Source: a virus. From it: a DNA stretch of 64,000 bases. Location of the stretch: IMG/VR virus record IMGVR_UViG_3300025319_000005, positions 124,001 through 188,000 of that record; one strand, given 5' to 3'. A model generated the notes under the pieces. That model had not been told where the DNA came from and searched no databases. It worked only from the letters and a program-made list of their open reading frames with translations. Positions 13,752 to 61,089 of the stretch are shown one piece after another (position 1 is the stretch's first letter; each line of letters starts with the position of its first letter). Both the position numbers and the translations under genes were made by a program.

Positions 13752-15149
13752 ATGCCGTCAAAAAATAAAAAACAGTTAAATTTTTTCTTATTAGTTAAAG
13801 CCTATAAAGAATCTGGAGAAAATGGCGTTTTTCGTCAATTAAAACATCTTGAAGGATATAAACCAAGACTTACTCCAACTTATATGAACAAGTTGATTAA
13901 AACAGCTGAAAGTATTGCTGATTCAGATTTAATAGATATGACTTCTGGAGTAGAAGGAGAAAACCCATTAGGCGATACAAGAAATTTAAAAGTAGGCTAC
14001 TGGGCATTATTTACAGGAAAATACAAACCAGCCGGCTCAAAAGATGAAATTCCAAAAGAAGGAGAATTTATAGCCCAAATAAAAAAAGTAGATAACGCGA
14101 AAGGTTTGGTTGAATTTAATCAAAAAGGTTTTAGAAATAAGTATGGAAATACTATTTTCATACCAAGAAGAGCTGTGGTCATCAATCAAGAATTTCAATA
14201 TTTGGATTATGCTTTATTTGACAATGTAATACGTACCGGTAAAAACCCTCAAGAACTTGCGAAGCCAAAAGAAAATATGGAAGAGTCAATTGAACTTAAA
14301 AGCAAATCACATAAGGGCAATAGATTATTTGATATGCTTAAAACTGCAAAGTTTCAACATTATGATTCTCCAAAAGGAGAATTATCTACATTAAATCATG
14401 GAGAAGAAGATAGAAAAAGAATAGTTTCAAAACTAGGCAAAGCTGATAAAAAAACTTATAGAGAATGGATTAAAACTCCAGAAGGAAAAGAATCTTTGGA
14501 AAGGTTTGAGGATTTTACATCACCCTTATTTAAAAAGAATAAAATTGAAGAATCAGTAAGAAAAATGGTAAGGAAGTTGTTGCGAGAAAACTTATCAGGA
14601 GAAAATTTGATACCAGATGATATAATTGATAGCTTTTACAATAGAATAAAGAAAATATTAGACGCTGGAGCTGATAAAAAACATCCCTCAGTAGAACGAG
14701 AATTAAACAGAATCAAAATGTTGAATGCAGATGTTATACCTGAAAAGATAAAAGCTCTTTTAACAGAAGAAATCGAAAATAATAATATTGATTTATCGAA
14801 TTATAATGGCTGGGAAAAACAATCAGAATGGTTTGGAAATCCTTCATTAGGCTTAGAAAGTTATAAAAAGATATTTCAAAATCCATTTAACAACAAAATG
14901 GTTCCTGTTTTTATATACGGCAAAGAAGGAGAAGGAAAAGATAAACCAATTTTGGGCGGTACTGATGAAAAAGGAAACAGGGTTTTGTCAGGCGAAAAAT
15001 TCGATGCTTCAGATTGGCATTTTGTAGTGCATGCCGGAGCTAATAGTCAATATTCTTATTCTGGAGGATTTTATCCAGAAACCCCAACTTTAAAACAAGC
15101 TATGGATATTGTGGATGAGAAATATAAAAACAAAAAACTTATTCATTAA
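13752..15149 (+). CDS. virion-type protein with internal cleavage leader
   Basis: A 465-residue protein of unknown family. It starts MPSKNKKQLNFF, a style seen in small phage proteins, then a beta-rich domain. At residues about 270-285 it contains EESVRKMVRKLLREN, which looks just like the N-terminal leaders of other packaged proteins here and ends in a prohead-protease-like site. The C-terminal half (GWEKQSEWFGNP onwards) would be released as a separate product. A CTATTTAAT box precedes the gene. Confidence 0.65.
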   Translation: MPSKNKKQLNFFLLVKAYKESGENGVFRQLKHLEGYKPRLTPTYMNKLIKTAESIADSDLIDMTSGVEGENPLGDTRNLKVGYWALFTGKYKPAGSKDEIPKEGEFIAQIKKVDNAKGLVEFNQKGFRNKYGNTIFIPRRAVVINQEFQYLDYALFDNVIRTGKNPQELAKPKENMEESIELKSKSHKGNRLFDMLKTAKFQHYDSPKGELSTLNHGEEDRKRIVSKLGKADKKTYREWIKTPEGKESLERFEDFTSPLFKKNKIEESVRKMVRKLLRENLSGENLIPDDIIDSFYNRIKKILDAGADKKHPSVERELNRIKMLNADVIPEKIKALLTEEIENNNIDLSNYNGWEKQSEWFGNPSLGLESYKKIFQNPFNNKMVPVFIYGKEGEGKDKPILGGTDEKGNRVLSGEKFDASDWHFVVHAGANSQYSYSGGFYPETPTLKQAMDIVDEKYKNKKLIH

Positions 15150-15296
15150 ATTCTTGTGATATTCAATCACATATTTTAATTTTTTCAAAATATATCATGA
15201 ATCTTTTAAAATTTCATTCGTGAATAAAAATATATTACTTTCAGTATGTTTGCCTTAAAAGTTTTTTATTGCATATTTATAGTAAACATACTTAAA

Positions 15297-15992
15297 ATGA
15301 AAACAGAAACAGAAAAAACAGAAGAGAAACAAAAAATCAAAGAATTGGTTGATAAGGGTTTAAAAAATAAAGAAATTGGGAAAATATTAGGAATGAAATA
15401 TCGTACAGTTTGTTTTAAGTTAAGAGAATATAAATTAATTAGATATTCTAAACCGCAAATTTCTCAAGAAAAAATAGATGAAATGATTAGATTATATAAT
15501 GAAGGATATAATTGTACCGAAATTTGTGAAAAAATAAATATAAGTAAAATTACAATTTCATTTATACTAAAGGAGAACGGAATCAAAATAGTTAAACGAA
15601 GTGCTGATAGTAAACCAGAATTAAGATTATTAAGAGGTGAAAAATGTATAATTTGCGATAGAAACCTTGGACCATATGTTACAATATGTAGCACTTGTGT
15701 TTCTCAAGTTAGAAGGTATAAAATAAAGAAAAAAATGTTTGATTTTAAAGGTGGCAAATGTGAAGATTGTGGAGATGATAGTTTATGTGTGGATATTTAT
15801 GATTTTCATCATTTAGATCCAGATGAAAAGGATTTTAATTTATCAAAAGTTTTAATAGACGGAAAATCTTGGGATGATATAGAAAAAGAATTAAAAAAAT
15901 GCGCCTTACTCTGTTCTAATTGTCACAGAATTAGACATTCTGTTGAAAGAAAAAGTGAAAAATTTTGGAAATATATAAAATTAATTTCTTAA
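15297..15992 (+). CDS. HNH homing endonuclease with helix-turn-helix repeats
   Basis: From the ATG at 15297 the product starts with two helix-turn-helix modules (NKEIGKILGMKYRTV and NCTEICEKINISKIT), then a CxxC pair near residue 110, and an HNH core with CEDCGDD, DFHHLDPDEKDF and CSNCHRIRH. Zinc-dependent free-standing homing endonuclease, similar in plan to the one at 59475. It sits directly upstream of the atypical tRNA-Phe cluster. Confidence 0.85.
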   Translation: MKTETEKTEEKQKIKELVDKGLKNKEIGKILGMKYRTVCFKLREYKLIRYSKPQISQEKIDEMIRLYNEGYNCTEICEKINISKITISFILKENGIKIVKRSADSKPELRLLRGEKCIICDRNLGPYVTICSTCVSQVRRYKIKKKMFDFKGGKCEDCGDDSLCVDIYDFHHLDPDEKDFNLSKVLIDGKSWDDIEKELKKCALLCSNCHRIRHSVERKSEKFWKYIKLIS

Positions 15993-15999
15993 AAAGAAA

Positions 16000-16028
16000 A
16001 GCTCCAGTAAAACAATTACTGGAGCTTT
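16000..16028. terminator. bidirectional intrinsic terminator
   Basis: GCTCCAGTAA pairs with TTACTGGAGC around a five-base loop, with T-rich sequence on both strands. It ends the HNH gene on the plus strand and the tRNA-like cluster on the minus strand. Confidence 0.75.
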
Positions 16029-16033
16029 CACTG

Positions 16034-16150
16034 TGTTGATGGGGGGGATCGAACCAACCCGACTCATTTGCTTTCAGGAAATTGCTCTCACTTACTCCTT
16101 GCGAAGTAAAGGATTTGTCTTGCGAAAAACCACCACTGAGCTACATCAAC
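16034..16150 (-). tRNA. tRNA-Phe(GAA)-like with ~42-nt D-loop insertion
   Basis: Acceptor strands GTTGATG and CATCAAC pair perfectly, with A73. U8-A9, D-stem GCTC/GAGC and D-loop AGTGGT are standard. The D-loop is interrupted by about 42 extra bases containing two copies of TTCGCAAG. The anticodon loop CTGAAAG reads GAA. The T-loop TTCGATC is normal but its stem is imperfect, and anticodon pair 31-39 is C-C. It may be an interrupted or decaying tRNA-Phe; total length is 117. Confidence 0.5.
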
Positions 16151-16173
16151 ATATTATTAAAGAACTAATTTTG

Positions 16174-16250
16174 TGTCGATTAGAGACTACAAGTCCTCTC
16201 TTTTCTGGTTGTTCACACCAGCACTTTACGTGTACATAAGTTAAATCGAC
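16174..16250 (-). tRNA. atypical tRNA-Phe(GAA), degenerate D- and T-loops
   Basis: Acceptor GTCGATT/AATCGAC, A73, U8-A9, D-stem ACTT/AAGT, anticodon stem CTGGT/ACCAG with loop GTGAACA (U33, anticodon GAA). The D-loop lacks GG and the T-arm loop lacks TTC, so the normal elbow contacts are missing. A near copy follows at 16256 with compensating changes in both stems, which supports a real folded RNA. C37 instead of a purine is unusual. Confidence 0.6.
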
Positions 16251-16255
16251 ATATG

Positions 16256-16332
16256 TGTTGGTGAGAGACTACAAATCCGCTCTTATTCGGCTGTTCACAC
16301 CGATACTTTATATGTGTATAAGTTACACCAAC
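16256..16332 (-). tRNA. atypical tRNA-Phe(GAA), second copy
   Basis: Acceptor GTTGGTG/CACCAAC, A73, D-stem ACTT/AAGT, anticodon stem TCGGT/GCCGA, loop GTGAACA (anticodon GAA). T-arm again has TTGTAGTCTCT in place of a normal loop. Differences from the copy at 16174 are mostly paired changes in stems. The same 77-base length. No CCA is encoded. Confidence 0.6.
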
Positions 16333-16431
16333 ATATTTTATTTAAAAGAACTAAATCGTTTCAATTATTTAACGATACAAAGATAATAATATTTAAAACT
16401 TAAAACCAAATATTTTATAATAAAAATTTAC

Positions 16432-16469: not shown

Positions 16470-17009
16470 ATGACTACAGAGGAAAAAAAATTAAGAATAG
16501 CTATAAGAAAATCATTAATGGAAATGGAAAACGTTTCTGAAAGCGATATTTTAACAAGAGCTGGAGTTAACTGGCAAGAGATGAAGCCTAAATTTTTAAA
16601 AACAGTTAAATGTCTTGTTTCAAAAATAGATGACGATAAATATAACGATGCAGAAGATTTAATAGGTAAAGCTATTGGTATGCTTAAAATTTGGAAAGCA
16701 AAAATGAAAAAAGGAATAGGAATGGTTGATAGAACTTCGAATACTGAGACGTTGGATGAAATTGATATTACGGAAACTTTTGGTGGGAAATATGCTCTAG
16801 GAACTGGATATAAAAAAGATGAAATTGGCGATAAAAAATATCAAGGAAAACTTATTGATTATATTCTTTATAATCAAGGAAGAAACACAGACCAAAGAGA
16901 GCCGACTGATAGAAAAATGTATTGCGGATATGATTTAGAACAATTATCTAATAAGGATTTACAAAAAATAAAGGATAACATGGAACATCCAAGAGGAAGA
17001 TACTGGTAA
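16470..17009 (+). CDS. hypothetical protein with capsid-type leader
   Basis: A 179-residue protein starting with an amphipathic stretch (KKLRIAIRKSLMEMENVSE) that fits the leader pattern with a possible cut after LME or VSE. The body is charged, and its C-terminus has aromatic and Arg residues. No family recognised. Confidence 0.6.
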   Translation: MTTEEKKLRIAIRKSLMEMENVSESDILTRAGVNWQEMKPKFLKTVKCLVSKIDDDKYNDAEDLIGKAIGMLKIWKAKMKKGIGMVDRTSNTETLDEIDITETFGGKYALGTGYKKDEIGDKKYQGKLIDYILYNQGRNTDQREPTDRKMYCGYDLEQLSNKDLQKIKDNMEHPRGRYW

Positions 17010-18324: not shown

Positions 18325-19230
18325 TTACAATATATATCTATTCATTAGATTAGTTAAACTTGGATGGTGTTGCGTTATTATTTCCCAGTTTTTTTTAGAT
18401 AAAGATTCGAAATCGCAATGCTTTGAGTATTTATCTGGATTGTGTATTAATAACGTTTCCCATCCCAATGCAGAGATTTTATATTTATTTTCTTCTATTA
18501 AGTAATCTAAATGTGGAAATAATTGAACAATTTTTATAAGCAAAAAACAATCTCCTATTTGAAAAATGGATAAATCACAATGTTTTAAGAGTTCTGGTTT
18601 AGTAGTTAATATTTCTACCCAATCCAAAGCTTTTAATTTTTTTAAATCTAATTTATGTATATATTTTTCTCCGCTTTTTTTAATTAAAACCCTAACAGCA
18701 TAATGGTCAAGCGTTTCTAAATTCAATTTTTCTATTATTTCCGGAGTTTTATGGAAAGATTCAATTATTTTTCCAATTTCATGTTTAGAATACGTGTATT
18801 TACCCAAATCTATCTTTGGTAAGAAGCTAATGTTTATCTCGAGCATTTTTATAGCATCTATGGCCGACAAATTTTCATAATCCAAATCAAAGTATTCAAT
18901 CATGTCCGGATGTACTATAAATATAGGAATAAGGTCTCTAAGAGTAAAATCATGCTTATTTAAATCCAATCGTTCAAGAATATATTTATCCCTTACAATT
19001 AGTCTGATAAGCTTCATTTTATCTAATTTATCCCATTCGATAATATCTTTTATTCTTTCGTTTTTTAATAATGATTTATCATCTATAAAGTTGGGATTGA
19101 TGAATTTCGATAACACTTTAAATATAGGTTCCGGCAAAATCCTGTAATCTATTAACGCAGCATAATGACATATTGCTTTTTTGATAATTTCTCGTTTACT
19201 TTGTATGTCAGGAATTTTAACTGAACTCAT
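18325..19230 (-). CDS. helical repeat protein
   Basis: From the ATG at 19230 the product is made of helical repeats of about 35 residues with recurring W-x-x-(I/L)-(L/I) and (H/K)-x-C-D or x-L-D-L spacing (for example KPELLKHCDLS and PDKYSKHCDFES). Similar repeats with CDW signatures are known in Bacteroidota proteins of unknown role. Probably a protein-binding scaffold. An earlier start at 19299 would overlap the divergent gene. Confidence 0.6.
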   Translation of the reverse strand: MSSVKIPDIQSKREIIKKAICHYAALIDYRILPEPIFKVLSKFINPNFIDDKSLLKNERIKDIIEWDKLDKMKLIRLIVRDKYILERLDLNKHDFTLRDLIPIFIVHPDMIEYFDLDYENLSAIDAIKMLEINISFLPKIDLGKYTYSKHEIGKIIESFHKTPEIIEKLNLETLDHYAVRVLIKKSGEKYIHKLDLKKLKALDWVEILTTKPELLKHCDLSIFQIGDCFLLIKIVQLFPHLDYLIEENKYKISALGWETLLIHNPDKYSKHCDFESLSKKNWEIITQHHPSLTNLMNRYIL

Positions 19231-19274
19231 ATATACAAATATGAATAAAGAATTATATAAAGTAAATGTTTGAA

Positions 19275-19697
19275 ATGGCTGAAGAAAAATTTGATACATC
19301 AGGAAGACTAATCAAACATATTGAACCGGTTACTGGAATAATATATGAATACGAATATTTAGAAGATAGCTCAAGAATAATTACAATTACAAATGAAAGT
19401 AATAAATCAAATTTTAAGACTATAAAAAAACAAAAATTCGAAGATGGAAATTATATTGATGTGGAGGCTAATGAATTTGGAGATACATACAATATTTTAA
19501 AGAGATTTAATAAAGACAATAAAGAAAATTATTATGAACGGACAAATATAAAAACAGGAAAAATATTTAAGAAAAAAAGCATCTGGAAAGAAGGAAAAGT
19601 ATACCTTTGGACAACAGAATATGATGGAGAAACGAAAAAAATAGGTTTCCGAATGACACAAAATATAATTACAGGACTTACAAACAATAATGTATAA
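19275..19697 (+). CDS. hypothetical protein, beta-rich
   Basis: Charged beta-rich protein with repeated short strands (IIYEYEYLED, YYERTNIKTGK), reminiscent of repeat-type MORN or YD-like strands but too short to assign. An alternative start lies 9 bases earlier. The next gene starts in its stop codon (TAATG). Confidence 0.6.
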   Translation: MAEEKFDTSGRLIKHIEPVTGIIYEYEYLEDSSRIITITNESNKSNFKTIKKQKFEDGNYIDVEANEFGDTYNILKRFNKDNKENYYERTNIKTGKIFKKKSIWKEGKVYLWTTEYDGETKKIGFRMTQNIITGLTNNNV

Positions 19698-25329: not shown

Positions 25330-26364
25330 TTATCTAATTTCAACATTAAGACGCTCAATTGAGGTGAATTTTATATTTTCTTGGATTTCATTTATTTCTG
25401 TATTTGTTAAAGTGCGATCATTTGATTGAAAAACTATTCTATAACACTTAGATTGTTTACCTGTTTTTGGGTGAGCAAATTCATCTATTAATGAAACATT
25501 TTCTATTAAATCGCCTCCATTTTCTCTCACAATTTCACAAAAATTATTATGAGCGAAATTAGTATCTGCCCAAAATGCCAAATCTCTGGATATTGGTGGA
25601 TAACTTGAGTATTCCTTAAATTTAACTACATCTCCAGAAATAAATTGATTTATAAATCTTTCATCAGACGACCAAAAGTAACGTATGTCTGGTATTTCAA
25701 ATAAGAGGATAGACAATCTTTCCAAACCTAATCCAAAAGCAAATGCAGCTTTATTTTCTAAACCACAATTTTCCATAATTTTAGGTTGAACAACCCCTGC
25801 ACCAAGAACCTCTAACCATTTTCCCTGAAACATAACTTCAACTTCAAAAGATGGATGTGTAAAAGGAAAATAATCTTCATTGAAGCGGTATTCACAATTT
25901 GGAAAAAGAACATCAATAAGACCTTTTAATGTTTTTTTAAGTTCTTCTTCTGCGTTTTTTCCATCTTCAATTACACATACACCTTCCATTTGGTGAAAAA
26001 CCGGATAATGAGAGCTGTCAATATCATCTTTCCGATACACATCACCTGTAACTAAAAATTTTGTATGACCAGCAGTTAATAATTCATTTTGGTGAGCCGA
26101 TGTATGGGTTCGTAATATATGATTCTCATCAAAATAATAAGTATCACTCAATGAACGTGCAGGATGATCTTTTGGAATAAGTAGTTTATCAAAACAATTT
26201 TCAGTTGTAACCTTTGGATTTAAATCATCAAATTTTTTATATTCATCTCCAAAGTAATCATAGATTTTTCTTTTAATAATTTCTAAAGGATGATTTTTTT
26301 GATTGTGTAAATTTCTGCCAATTTTAGCTTGGATTCCGGGGGTAATGTTTGATTTAAATTCCAT
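25330..26364 (-). CDS. mitochondrial-type monomeric phenylalanyl-tRNA synthetase
   Basis: Single-chain PheRS. It follows human mitochondrial PheRS segment for segment as I remember it: GRNLHNQKNHPL at the start, LLIPKDHPARSLSDTYYF, RTHTSAHQ (motif 2), GDVYRKDDIDSSHYPVFHQ, FPFTHPSFEVEV, LEVLGAGVVQP and FGLGLERLSILL (motif 3). The C-terminal part has HPKTGKQSKCYRI, the ferredoxin-like anticodon-binding domain. Bacteria normally use an alpha2beta2 enzyme, so this form is striking in a phage. I chose the ATG at 26364, where homology begins. Three odd tRNA-Phe genes lie at 16 kb. Confidence 0.9.
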   Translation of the reverse strand: MEFKSNITPGIQAKIGRNLHNQKNHPLEIIKRKIYDYFGDEYKKFDDLNPKVTTENCFDKLLIPKDHPARSLSDTYYFDENHILRTHTSAHQNELLTAGHTKFLVTGDVYRKDDIDSSHYPVFHQMEGVCVIEDGKNAEEELKKTLKGLIDVLFPNCEYRFNEDYFPFTHPSFEVEVMFQGKWLEVLGAGVVQPKIMENCGLENKAAFAFGLGLERLSILLFEIPDIRYFWSSDERFINQFISGDVVKFKEYSSYPPISRDLAFWADTNFAHNNFCEIVRENGGDLIENVSLIDEFAHPKTGKQSKCYRIVFQSNDRTLTNTEINEIQENIKFTSIERLNVEIR

Positions 26365-26391
26365 AAAATAATTGTTTAATTGTTTTTTGTA

Positions 26392-26421
26392 CAAATTTAT
26401 AAAAATAATATTAATTAACAA
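26392..26421 (-). promoter_or_regulatory. Bacteroidota-type promoter for PheRS
   Basis: TTG, 19 bases, then TAAATTTG on the minus strand, about 28 bases before the PheRS start. Confidence 0.6.
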
Positions 26422-48854: not shown

Positions 48855-48933
48855 TACCTTCAATAGGATTCGAACCTACATTTTCAGCTCCGTTACACTT
48901 ATTGAGTCCGTAGCTCAATGTGGCTATAAAGGC
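48855..48933 (-). tRNA. tRNA, isotype uncertain (possible anticodon ACG)
   Basis: Acceptor GCCTTTA/TGAAGGT, A73, U8-A9 and a normal T-arm GTAGG-TTCGAAT-CCTAT. The best hairpin in the centre is TTGAG-CTACGGA-CTCAA, which would give anticodon ACG (Arg), but then the D-arm is almost absent and the variable region is 22 bases. Isotype is therefore tentative. Confidence 0.5.
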
Positions 48934-49621: not shown

Positions 49622-49678
49622 AATTCTAACTTATTTTAATGTAAATAGGTTAGAATTTTTTAATAAAGTAAATAGTTG

Positions 49679-49754
49679 AGGATAAGAAGAGAATTAAACT
49701 CCTGTTAAATATGTTTTGCAGACATATCCCGATTTCAACATTGGGTACTTATCC
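49679..49754 (-). tRNA. tRNA-Cys(GCA)
   Basis: Acceptor GGATAAG/CTTATCC, U73, anticodon stem TATGT/ACATA with loop CTGCAAA (anticodon GCA). D-loop lacks the GG pair and the T-loop is TTTAATT. U73 fits Cys. Confidence 0.8.
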
Positions 49755-50205: not shown

Positions 50206-50246
50206 AATTTAATTTGTTCAAAGTACAAATTATTAAAAACTTTTGG

Positions 50247-50319
50247 CGAGTATGACCGGTCCTGACCCGGCGACCTCCTCATAGACAGTGAGGCATTCTT
50301 CCAACTGAACTACACACTC
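50247..50319 (-). tRNA. tRNA-Asp(GUC)
   Basis: Acceptor GAGTGTG/CATACTC, G73, anticodon CCTCA/TGAGG with loop CTGTCTA. T-loop is GTCAGGA rather than TTC. Confidence 0.85.
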
Positions 50320-50718: not shown

Positions 50719-50732
50719 GTTTTTATTTAAAG

Positions 50733-50805
50733 TCTAGGTGGCCTGCTCCGACCAGGCGGTCTCCAGTTCCCAAAACTGGCGGATTTCCAACTTTCCCACA
50801 CCTAG
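50733..50805 (-). tRNA. tRNA-Pro(UGG)
   Basis: Acceptor CTAGGTG/CACCTAG with C1-G72, anticodon CCAGT/ACTGG loop TTTGGGA (UGG), T-stem GCCTG/CAGGC. Confidence 0.85.
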
Positions 50806-50911: not shown

Positions 50912-50984
50912 AGCGAAAAACCAGGTTCAAACTGGCGACCCCCAGAGTGGAAATCTGGCGCTCTATCAACTGAGCTATTTTCGC
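50912..50984 (-). tRNA. tRNA-Gly(UCC)
   Basis: Acceptor GCGAAAA/TTTTCGC, U73, D-arm GCTC/GAGC, anticodon CCAGA/TCTGG loop TTTCCAC (UCC). Confidence 0.9.
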
Positions 50985-52090: not shown

Positions 52091-52173
52091 TGGGAGTTGA
52101 TGGAGACGAGCCACCCGAGTTTTAAAACAACCGATTTACAGTCGGTCCCGCTACCCCTACGGAATAAACTCCC
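52091..52173 (-). tRNA. tRNA-Tyr(GUA)
   Basis: 83 bases with a class II variable region. Acceptor GGGAGTT/AACTCCC, anticodon CCGA/TCGG with loop CTGTAAA (GUA), T-stem GGTGG/CCATC. Confidence 0.85.
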
Positions 52174-52185
52174 ATTTTAATGTTG

Positions 52186-52257
52186 CACAGACGGTTATAA
52201 TCGAAATAACTACGTGTAGTTTTTGGAGAACTCACCGACACCAAGCCTGTCGTCTGT
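52186..52257 (-). tRNA. tRNA-Trp(CCA)
   Basis: Acceptor ACAGACG/CGTCTGT, G73 as in tRNA-Trp, T-arm GTTAT-TTCGATT-ATAAC. Anticodon stem AGTT/AACT with loop CTCCAAA (CCA). D-arm is short and irregular. Confidence 0.75.
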
Positions 52258-52297
52258 ATTTTATCTATTTTTTAAGCTGTAAGATAATTAGCTAAGT

Positions 52298-52367
52298 AGC
52301 GAAAACTGGAATCGAACCAATGTAGACACAGCTTATGAGACTGGTGGGAAACCAACATCCTTTTCGC
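52298..52367 (-). tRNA. tRNA-Met-type (CAU)
   Basis: Acceptor GCGAAAA/TTTTCGC, anticodon stem CAGT/GCTG with loop CTCATAA (CAU), T-arm ATTGG-TTCGATT-CCAGT. D-arm reduced to GGA/TCC; the base after the acceptor is U. Could be elongator Met or a lysidine-dependent Ile. Confidence 0.7.
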
Positions 52368-52381
52368 AATATATTTTTTTG

Positions 52382-52454
52382 TAGCCCCTGCCGGTCCTGA
52401 CCCGACGACTTCATTCATGTAAAAAATGCACTCTACCAACTGAGTTAAGGGGCT
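52382..52454 (-). tRNA. tRNA-Val(UAC)
   Basis: Acceptor AGCCCCT/AGGGGCT, D-arm ACTC/GAGT, anticodon CATTT/GAATG loop TTTACAT (UAC), A73. Confidence 0.9.
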
Positions 52455-52459
52455 ATTAG

Positions 52460-52533
52460 TAGCATATATCAGAATCAAACTGATGACCTTCCTCATATGA
52501 AAAGGACGCTCTAATCAACTGAGCTAATATGCT
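52460..52533 (-). tRNA. tRNA(CAU), second copy (Met or Ile2)
   Basis: Acceptor AGCATAT/ATATGCT, D-arm GCTC/GAGC, anticodon TCCTT/GAGGA loop TTCATAT (CAU), A73. Canonical cloverleaf. Paired first base argues against initiator tRNA. Confidence 0.85.
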
Positions 52534-52543
52534 ATTTAAAAAG

Positions 52544-52615
52544 AGCGGGTGATGAGGATTAAACTCACGGCCTCATCCTTGGCAAGGATGCGCTCTATCG
52601 CTGAGCTACACCCGC
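52544..52615 (-). tRNA. tRNA-Gly(GCC)
   Basis: Acceptor GCGGGTG/CACCCGC, U73, anticodon CATCC/GGATG loop TTGCCAA (GCC). First tRNA after the leader and terminator of this array. Confidence 0.9.
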
Positions 52616-58694: not shown

Positions 58695-58698
58695 ATAG

Positions 58699-58785
58699 TG
58701 TACCCAGAAAGATTCGAACTTTCAACGGCCTTTCGGCTCCCCACAGGGTAAAAACCTGTTGCTCTACCAATTGAGCCATGGGTAC
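58699..58785 (-). tRNA. class II-type tRNA with anticodon UUU
   Basis: Acceptor GTACCCA/TGGGTAC, D-arm GCTC/GAGC, anticodon ACAGG/CCTGT loop TTTTTAC (UUU), T-arm GAAAG-TTCGAAT-CTTTC. The variable region is about 19 bases with a GCC-GAAA-GGC hairpin, as in Leu, Ser or Tyr tRNAs. The isotype implied by the anticodon (Lys) never has this normally. Confidence 0.75.
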
Positions 58786-59018: not shown

Positions 59019-59371
59019 TTAACCTTGAATATCTTGACATTCCGTGATGTTATAGGTCTTTATAAAATCCTTACCATCAGTTATTATTAAATCCAAGTTA
59101 CTTGAATAGTACCCGTTATTAGAACCGTGTCCAGCTATTTTTACAGAATGTCCTTGTATTGGAATTAATTCAATTCCGTAATCAGGAATTCTTTTGAAGA
59201 AATCATCATTTGTTAAATCAAATTCTAATCCTTCAAATCAGCGATTGTTAAATCATCTAATGTTAATGAATGTGATTCACAACAATCTGATTCATGATTT
59301 GAATATAACTTTACTTCATTTTCAAATTCAATTGCATCTGAGTCAACTTTTACTACTTTTAATTTGTTCAT
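59019..59371 (-). pseudogene. frameshifted conserved phage gene
   Basis: The first frame (59225-59371) begins MNKLKVVKVDSDAIEF, with SDCCESHSL, and stops after TIADLKD. The second frame continues DLTNDDFFKRIPDYG, GHGSNNGYYSSNLDLI and TECQDIQG to 59019. A one-base shift at AAGGAT rejoins them as one known-looking small family. It may be a mutation, a base-calling error in a G run, or a programmed -1 shift. Confidence 0.7.
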
Positions 59372-59387
59372 TTTATTTATGTTTTTG

Positions 59388-59461
59388 GGTGCTATATCGG
59401 CTACGACCCGATTACCTTCTGTACCACAAACAGACACTCTACCAATTGAGCTAATAACACC
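59388..59461 (-). tRNA. tRNA-His(GUG)
   Basis: Encoded G-1 opposite C73, as His requires. Acceptor GTGTTAT/ATAGCAC, anticodon TCTGT/ACAGA loop TTGTGGT (GUG), D-arm GCTC/GAGT. Confidence 0.9.
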
Positions 59462-61012: not shown

Positions 61013-61089
61013 TGGAGATTGCCAGAATTGAACTGGCGTTAATTTCACGGTTCTTCAAACCGCAGCTAGACCGTCTCAGCTAAATCTCC
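61013..61089 (-). tRNA. tRNA-Phe(GAA), canonical
   Basis: Acceptor GGAGATT/AATCTCC, A73, anticodon GCGGT/ACCGT loop TTGAAGA (GAA), T-arm GCCAG-TTCAATT-CTGGC. A normal counterpart of the degenerate ones at 16 kb. Confidence 0.9.

Follow-up and report, generated by a model that had tools for sequence, protein, structure and literature searches.

Phenylalanine tRNA-like RNAs with altered elbows and a mitochondrial-type phenylalanyl-tRNA synthetase encoded in a phage genome

The window analysed here, 64,000 nucleotides long, covers positions 124001-188000 of a 212,632-base virus record. Three tRNA-Phe-like RNAs, designated N1, N2 and C, lie on its minus strand together with a gene for a phenylalanyl-tRNA synthetase (PheRS). 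The features of the locus are:

16256-16332, minus strand: N1, a 77-nt cloverleaf with a GAA anticodon (sequence, covariation with N2, descriptor scan)
16174-16250, minus strand: N2, 77 nt, a tandem copy of N1 (covariation, descriptor scan)
16034-16150, minus strand: C, a 117-nt tRNA-Phe-like RNA (sequence, descriptor scan)
approx. 16089-16129, minus strand: D-loop insert of C as read from the sequence, the larger of its hairpins being present in the predicted fold
15997-16029, minus strand: intrinsic terminator with a 14-pair stem and U tail, directly 3' of C
16378-16385, minus strand: promoter-motif match TATCTTTG, fitting TAnnTTTG, 52 nt upstream of N1
16345-16351, minus strand: boxA-like GTTCTTT upstream of N1
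16159-16165, minus strand: second boxA-like GTTCTTT, before C
16470-17009, plus strand: gene of unassigned function adjoining the RNA unit, with homologues bordering the units of relatives
25330-26421, minus strand: monomeric mitochondrial-type PheRS, with a PF01409 core and an FDX-ACB domain

N1 and N2 (77 nt each, or 78 if a possible U-1:A73 pair is counted) share one layout: a 7-bp acceptor stem, UA at positions 8-9, the hairpins of the D-arm and anticodon arm, a third hairpin, and A73. Their anticodon loop, GUGAACA (U33, GAA, C37), is identical. Read from the sequence, neither has the D-loop G18G19 or the T-loop TTC. Their D-arm is a long hairpin closed by the tetraloop CACA in N1 or UACA in N2, and in the third arm a bulge of 3 nt on the 5' side separates a 4-bp stem from a 3-bp stem. 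The elbow of C is normal (T-loop TTCGATC, D-loop AGTGGT), and its D-loop holds about 42 extra nucleotides able to form two hairpins; TTCGCAAG occurs twice in this insert, and each copy could close a GCAA tetraloop. C is irregular in two stems: the T-stem contains a TT bulge, and the anticodon stem is interrupted by a C31-C39 mismatch. All three RNAs have the cloverleaf, GAA, U33 and A73 of a canonical elongator tRNA-Phe; the G18G19 and TTC elbow of that class is present in C and lost from N1 and N2, and its purine 37 is A37 in C and replaced by C37 in N1 and N2. The initial annotation had described two 77-base GAA RNAs with covarying stems and no GG or TTC, and a third with a normal elbow and a 42-base D-loop insertion containing a repeat, and both descriptions hold.

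Across 78 positions N1 and N2 differ at 19, with 27 of 27 stem pairs intact in both copies. Six of these pairs are changed on both sides (compensatory) and three on one side. When 19 substitutions were placed randomly in 200,000 trials, six compensatory pairs were reached once and all pairs were kept 11 times. The compensatory changes fall in every stem class except the T-arm. A GAA-loop cloverleaf descriptor recovered N1, N2, C, the RNAs of relatives and known tRNAs, and gave no match in 413 kb of shuffled sequence. ARAGORN misses N1, N2 and C in standard as well as mitochondrial mode, and RF00005 of Rfam gives nothing above its gathering threshold in their region, nor any weaker match with E as high as 10, so the case rests on covariation and comparison rather than on a tRNA score. 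Energy folding of N1 and N2 is only mildly better than that of shuffled sequence (z -1.5 and -2.1); the cloverleaf is not reached outright by energy alone, and in N1 it merely ties with another fold.

Several viral contigs, from which the PheRS relatives were taken, carry comparable RNAs. In L041 two N-type RNAs stand in tandem, the second of them truncated where the contig ends; L042 has a C-type RNA flanked by two N-type RNAs, with its own terminator; and L044 has one C-type RNA at the same genomic position. In the window and in these three contigs the unit lies beyond the homologue of the gene at 16470-17009, downstream of the PheRS and on the same strand; in L041 and L044 the homologue adjoins the unit, and that of L042 is linked through these two. 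An N-type pair is found in L113 8.3 kb downstream of the PheRS, in a different gene context. The inserts of the C-type RNAs in L042 (about 46 nt) and L044 (about 24 nt), at the equivalent T-stem place, can likewise be folded into two hairpins. L113 also encodes, directly upstream of its odd tRNA pair (14105-14818), a 237-aa minimal class II synthetase-like protein with relatives, mostly annotated as hypothetical, in Caulobacter, Brevundimonas and other large phages; as a general companion of odd tRNAs it was not borne out among these relatives.

The RNA unit had no blastn match in phages, the RNA patterns from L041/L042 and from L113 matched only their own contigs, and the searched flanks of many other phages with this PheRS contained no odd GAA RNA. 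Queries with the neighbouring proteins (16470-17009 and 18325-19299) gave no new contigs. Used as a DNA pattern, the core conserved between N1 and N2 gave 20 matches in viral contigs, which looked like chance coding matches and were set aside. A covariance model built from N1 and N2 picked out only L041 among relatives, weakly (20.8 bits, E about 0.03), and in nine genomes with an accessory PheRS it had no match, a weak test without a positive control; a joint set of N-types was misaligned by MAFFT. Candidate kissing contacts between D-loop and T-loop can be drawn for N2 (UACA-UGUA), L041 (CGC-GCG) and L113 (GACUA-UAGUC). Taken singly, the first L113 RNA is the only one to differ significantly from shuffled loops (p 0.004), and such a contact therefore remains a suggestion.

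Motifs of transcription signals surround the unit. TAnnTTTG is the -7 promoter consensus of Bacteroidota, and GTTCTTT resembles boxA; on both strands of the window they occur at backgrounds of about 0.9/kb and 0.25/kb, respectively. TAnnTTTG also stands at most 150 nt upstream of the units in L041, L042 and L044, as does GTTCTTT in L041 and L042, and similar terminators follow the units of L042 and, by inspection, L044. N1, N2 and C would be transcribed together as one stable-RNA unit. Convergent with this unit, at 15246-15992, is a gene with HTH and HNH endonuclease domains, a possible homing endonuclease. Taken together, N1, N2 and C are a real, structured and conserved RNA unit.

The PheRS at 25330-26421 probably starts at an internal ATG (MEFKSN). 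It combines a PheS-like core and an FDX-ACB domain in one chain, with FARS2 closest, and scores 350 bits against human mitochondrial PheRS compared with 158 for the best bacterial PheS, with 46-51% identity to the human enzyme in both halves. The mitochondrial likeness noted earlier for this enzyme is thus genuine. The same note had placed the tRNAs next to it; they share its genome and strand, at a distance of 9 kb rather than side by side. An accessory gene of the same PheRS type occurs in Elizabethkingia, Sphingobacterium, Chryseobacterium, Pedobacter and Myroides, so this type is not restricted to phages; no such RNA was found within 10 kb of these accessory genes. In the PheRS tree the window enzyme and L041-L043 form one group (98/94), which lies beside the Bacteroidota set with weaker support; together with the promoter motif, this grouping suggests a Bacteroidota host. 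Human mitochondrial PheRS falls inside the clade of phage and accessory Bacteroidota monomeric enzymes (98/99; rows including L123-L138). The row nearest to it, L139, carries an archaeal label but is gene-poor, and could be contaminating eukaryotic DNA.

According to a review, recognition by human mitochondrial PheRS depends on G1-C72, A73, C74 and G34; nucleotide 20 at the corner is contacted by the E. coli enzyme but lies out of reach of the yeast mitochondrial one (PMC9976931). G1-C72, A73 and GAA are present in all nine PheRS-linked RNAs tabulated, and unlinked tRNA-Phe keep these too. U2-A71 occurs in 7/9 linked RNAs and 0/7 unlinked phage tRNA-Phe, and pyrimidine 37 has the same distribution, 7/9 against 0/7 (Fisher p 0.003 for each, the rows not being independent). 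All N-type RNAs have a pyrimidine at 37.

We hold with moderate confidence that N1, N2 and C are Phe-accepting tRNAs, forming one transcribed unit dedicated to the phage's own elbow-indifferent, mitochondrial-type PheRS. Structure, covariation, linkage, positional conservation, transcription-signal motifs, enzyme type and the presence of the identity elements are directly supported. Enzymes of the mitochondrial type read the anticodon together with the acceptor end (G1-C72, A73) and have no need of the elbow, which would leave the D- and T-loops free to change. The host heterotetrameric PheRS uses elbow nucleotides, so that N1 and N2 should be poor substrates, and poor charging by the host would make the PheRS/tRNA pair phage-owned. 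We infer that the phage PheRS charges N1, N2 and C, that host PheRS is excluded and that the charged RNAs are used in translation. The likeliest benefit would be a supply of Phe-tRNA in infection that is independent of host PheRS, and this supply might escape host enzymes acting on normal tRNA-Phe, such as modification enzymes and tRNA-cutting defences. Against this reading, the phage also carries a canonical tRNA-Phe (61013-61089). Pyrimidine 37 is unusual in a working elongator tRNA, and the bulges in the T-stem fall close to where EF-Tu makes contact; both argue against efficient elongation. Also counting against it are the accessory Bacteroidota PheRS genes and the many other phages with this enzyme whose searched surroundings have no odd GAA RNA, and the failure of N1 and N2 to reach the cloverleaf outright by energy alone.

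Alternatively, N1 and N2 may be tRNA-shaped non-elongators, either decoys for host tRNA nucleases or PheRS, or Phe donors in a non-ribosomal reaction, with the GAA loop kept for binding only. Pyrimidine 37 in all N-types, the altered elbow and the T-stem bulges would suit such a role, translation already has the canonical tRNA-Phe, and altered anticodon loops of other phage tRNAs have been interpreted as a way to escape nucleases (PMC10264068). However, no Leu/Phe-transferase family was found in the phage or its relatives, the linkage to a synthetase suggests charging, and both tRNA-Pyl and type II mitochondrial tRNAs translate without GG and TTC (PMC7609411). We regard this explanation as unlikely.

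Ordinary drift, in which the three RNAs would be plain Phe-codon supplements with neutrally drifting loops and no special tie to the PheRS, we consider improbable. The phage has 29% GC and its main Phe codon is TTT (1456 TTT, 277 TTC), and several of its other tRNAs have altered T-loops. Yet Phe is only eighth in use and has seven GAA cloverleafs, compared with three for Lys (11.5%) and one for Ile (8.7%); moreover, U2-A71 and pyrimidine 37 are concentrated in the PheRS-linked copies, and the linkage recurs in L041, L042, L044 and L113. It is less probable still that the RNAs carry another amino acid via another synthetase. The L113 pair does lie directly 3' of the 237-aa gene, whose matches are GlyRS/PylRS-like, but no such gene is present in the window phage or in the L041, L042 and L044 records (some of them fragments), the stretches scanned around three relatives of this gene elsewhere hold no adjoining odd GAA cloverleaf, and GAA, A73 and G1-C72 fit Phe. 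Decaying, hitch-hiking tRNA pseudogenes, as might be supposed from RNAs missed by standard finders and from the anticodon-stem mismatch and bulged T-stem of C, are the poorest explanation, given the 27/27 intact pairs with six compensatory changes, the invariant anticodon loop, the tandem copies that relatives carry at the same place, and the terminator and promoter motifs.

Other tRNAs of these phages also depart from the norm. In tRNA-Cys, Gly, Met and Gly (49678-49754, 50912-50984, 52460-52533 and 52544-52615) A19 is combined with U56, G19-C56 apparently having been swapped to A-U in all four. The T-loop of tRNA-Asp, Pro, Val and His (50244-50319, 50732-50805, 52381-52454 and 59387-59460) starts GTC instead of TTC (U54 to G). 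Four tRNA-like genes (52091-52173, 52185-52257, 52297-52368 and 48855-48933) are missed by the bacterial mode of ARAGORN, with Tyr, Trp and Met coming from its mitochondrial mode and one from Rfam; a tRNA-Phe call of the mitochondrial mode at 59201-59267 did not stand up to inspection of the sequence. A tRNA-Lys(ttt) at 58698-58785 has a 15-nt hairpin insert with a GAAA loop in its variable region. Elsewhere, one genome represented by L026 and L027 has two GAA tRNAs with canonical elbows in which C33 replaces the near-universal U33 (L026:13046-13119 and L027:5425-5497), and a third with a D-loop hairpin insert (L026:12639-12735). The PheRS-linked RNAs are the extreme of the window phage's trend of departure from the normal elbow.

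That related phages share the arrangement suggests a stripped-down, phage-owned tRNA charging system, as in mitochondria. A broader proposal, which we consider doubtful, is that some phages, probably of Bacteroidota, use minimal one-way orthogonal Phe charging, in which an elbow-ignoring mitochondrial-type PheRS is paired with elbow-rewired tRNA-Phe that have alternative D-loop/T-loop contacts and are unusable by host PheRS. Because human mitochondrial PheRS branches inside the phage and Bacteroidota enzymes, mitochondria may have acquired their minimal PheRS from such a source. Natural pairs of an elbow-indifferent phage PheRS and its own tRNAs would make it testable whether such a synthetase lets tRNA loops change; they would likewise provide a candidate orthogonal pair, and bear on why phages carry tRNAs and on the origin of mitochondrial PheRS.

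Elbow-motif-lacking tRNAs are known from mitochondria and tRNA-Pyl, phages being unmentioned in a review of non-canonical tRNAs, and searches of open-access papers brought up no elbow-lacking tRNA in a phage. Nuclease-evading phage tRNAs resemble N1 and N2 in their unusual anticodon-loop positions, but the changes described there are in the anticodon loop; Phe and the D-loop are not mentioned in that text, and neither elbow loss nor a linked synthetase was found in it (PMC10264068). Among non-canonical bacterial tRNAs from metagenomes (selC* tRNA-Cys and allo-tRNAs), the A51a T-stem bulge of selC* tRNA-Cys is comparable to the bulges seen here, whereas the long acceptor and variable arms of that group are absent here. 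tRNA-Pyl also lacks G18G19 and the T-loop motif and works with a dedicated synthetase (PMC7609411). It differs in reading a stop codon, in using another synthetase and, for the case described, in a one-base acceptor/D linker; in N1 and N2 positions 8-9 are UA, and the anticodon is a sense anticodon for Phe.

The initial annotation had called the RNAs organelle-like. For C this fails, as it is an expanded tRNA, and the loops of N1 and N2 are lineage-specific, with neither the mitochondrial mode of ARAGORN nor Rfam recognising them. Unlike mitochondrial tRNAs, N1 and N2 are encoded by a phage, in a virus record rather than a mitochondrial genome, alongside canonical tRNAs, and have an extended D hairpin, a bulged third arm and pyrimidine 37. 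What stands is the loss of the elbow motifs: as in type II mitochondrial tRNAs, N1 and N2 form a cloverleaf without conserved G18G19 and TTC (PMC7609411), and ARAGORN in mitochondrial mode calls the L041, L042 and L113 RNAs mtRNA-Phe. The phage PheRS is, similar to FARS2, small and monomeric with an FDX-ACB domain, and FARS2-type enzymes read the acceptor end and the anticodon (PMC9976931). The likeness of N1 and N2 to mitochondrial tRNAs may be convergent, permitted by this shared type of enzyme.
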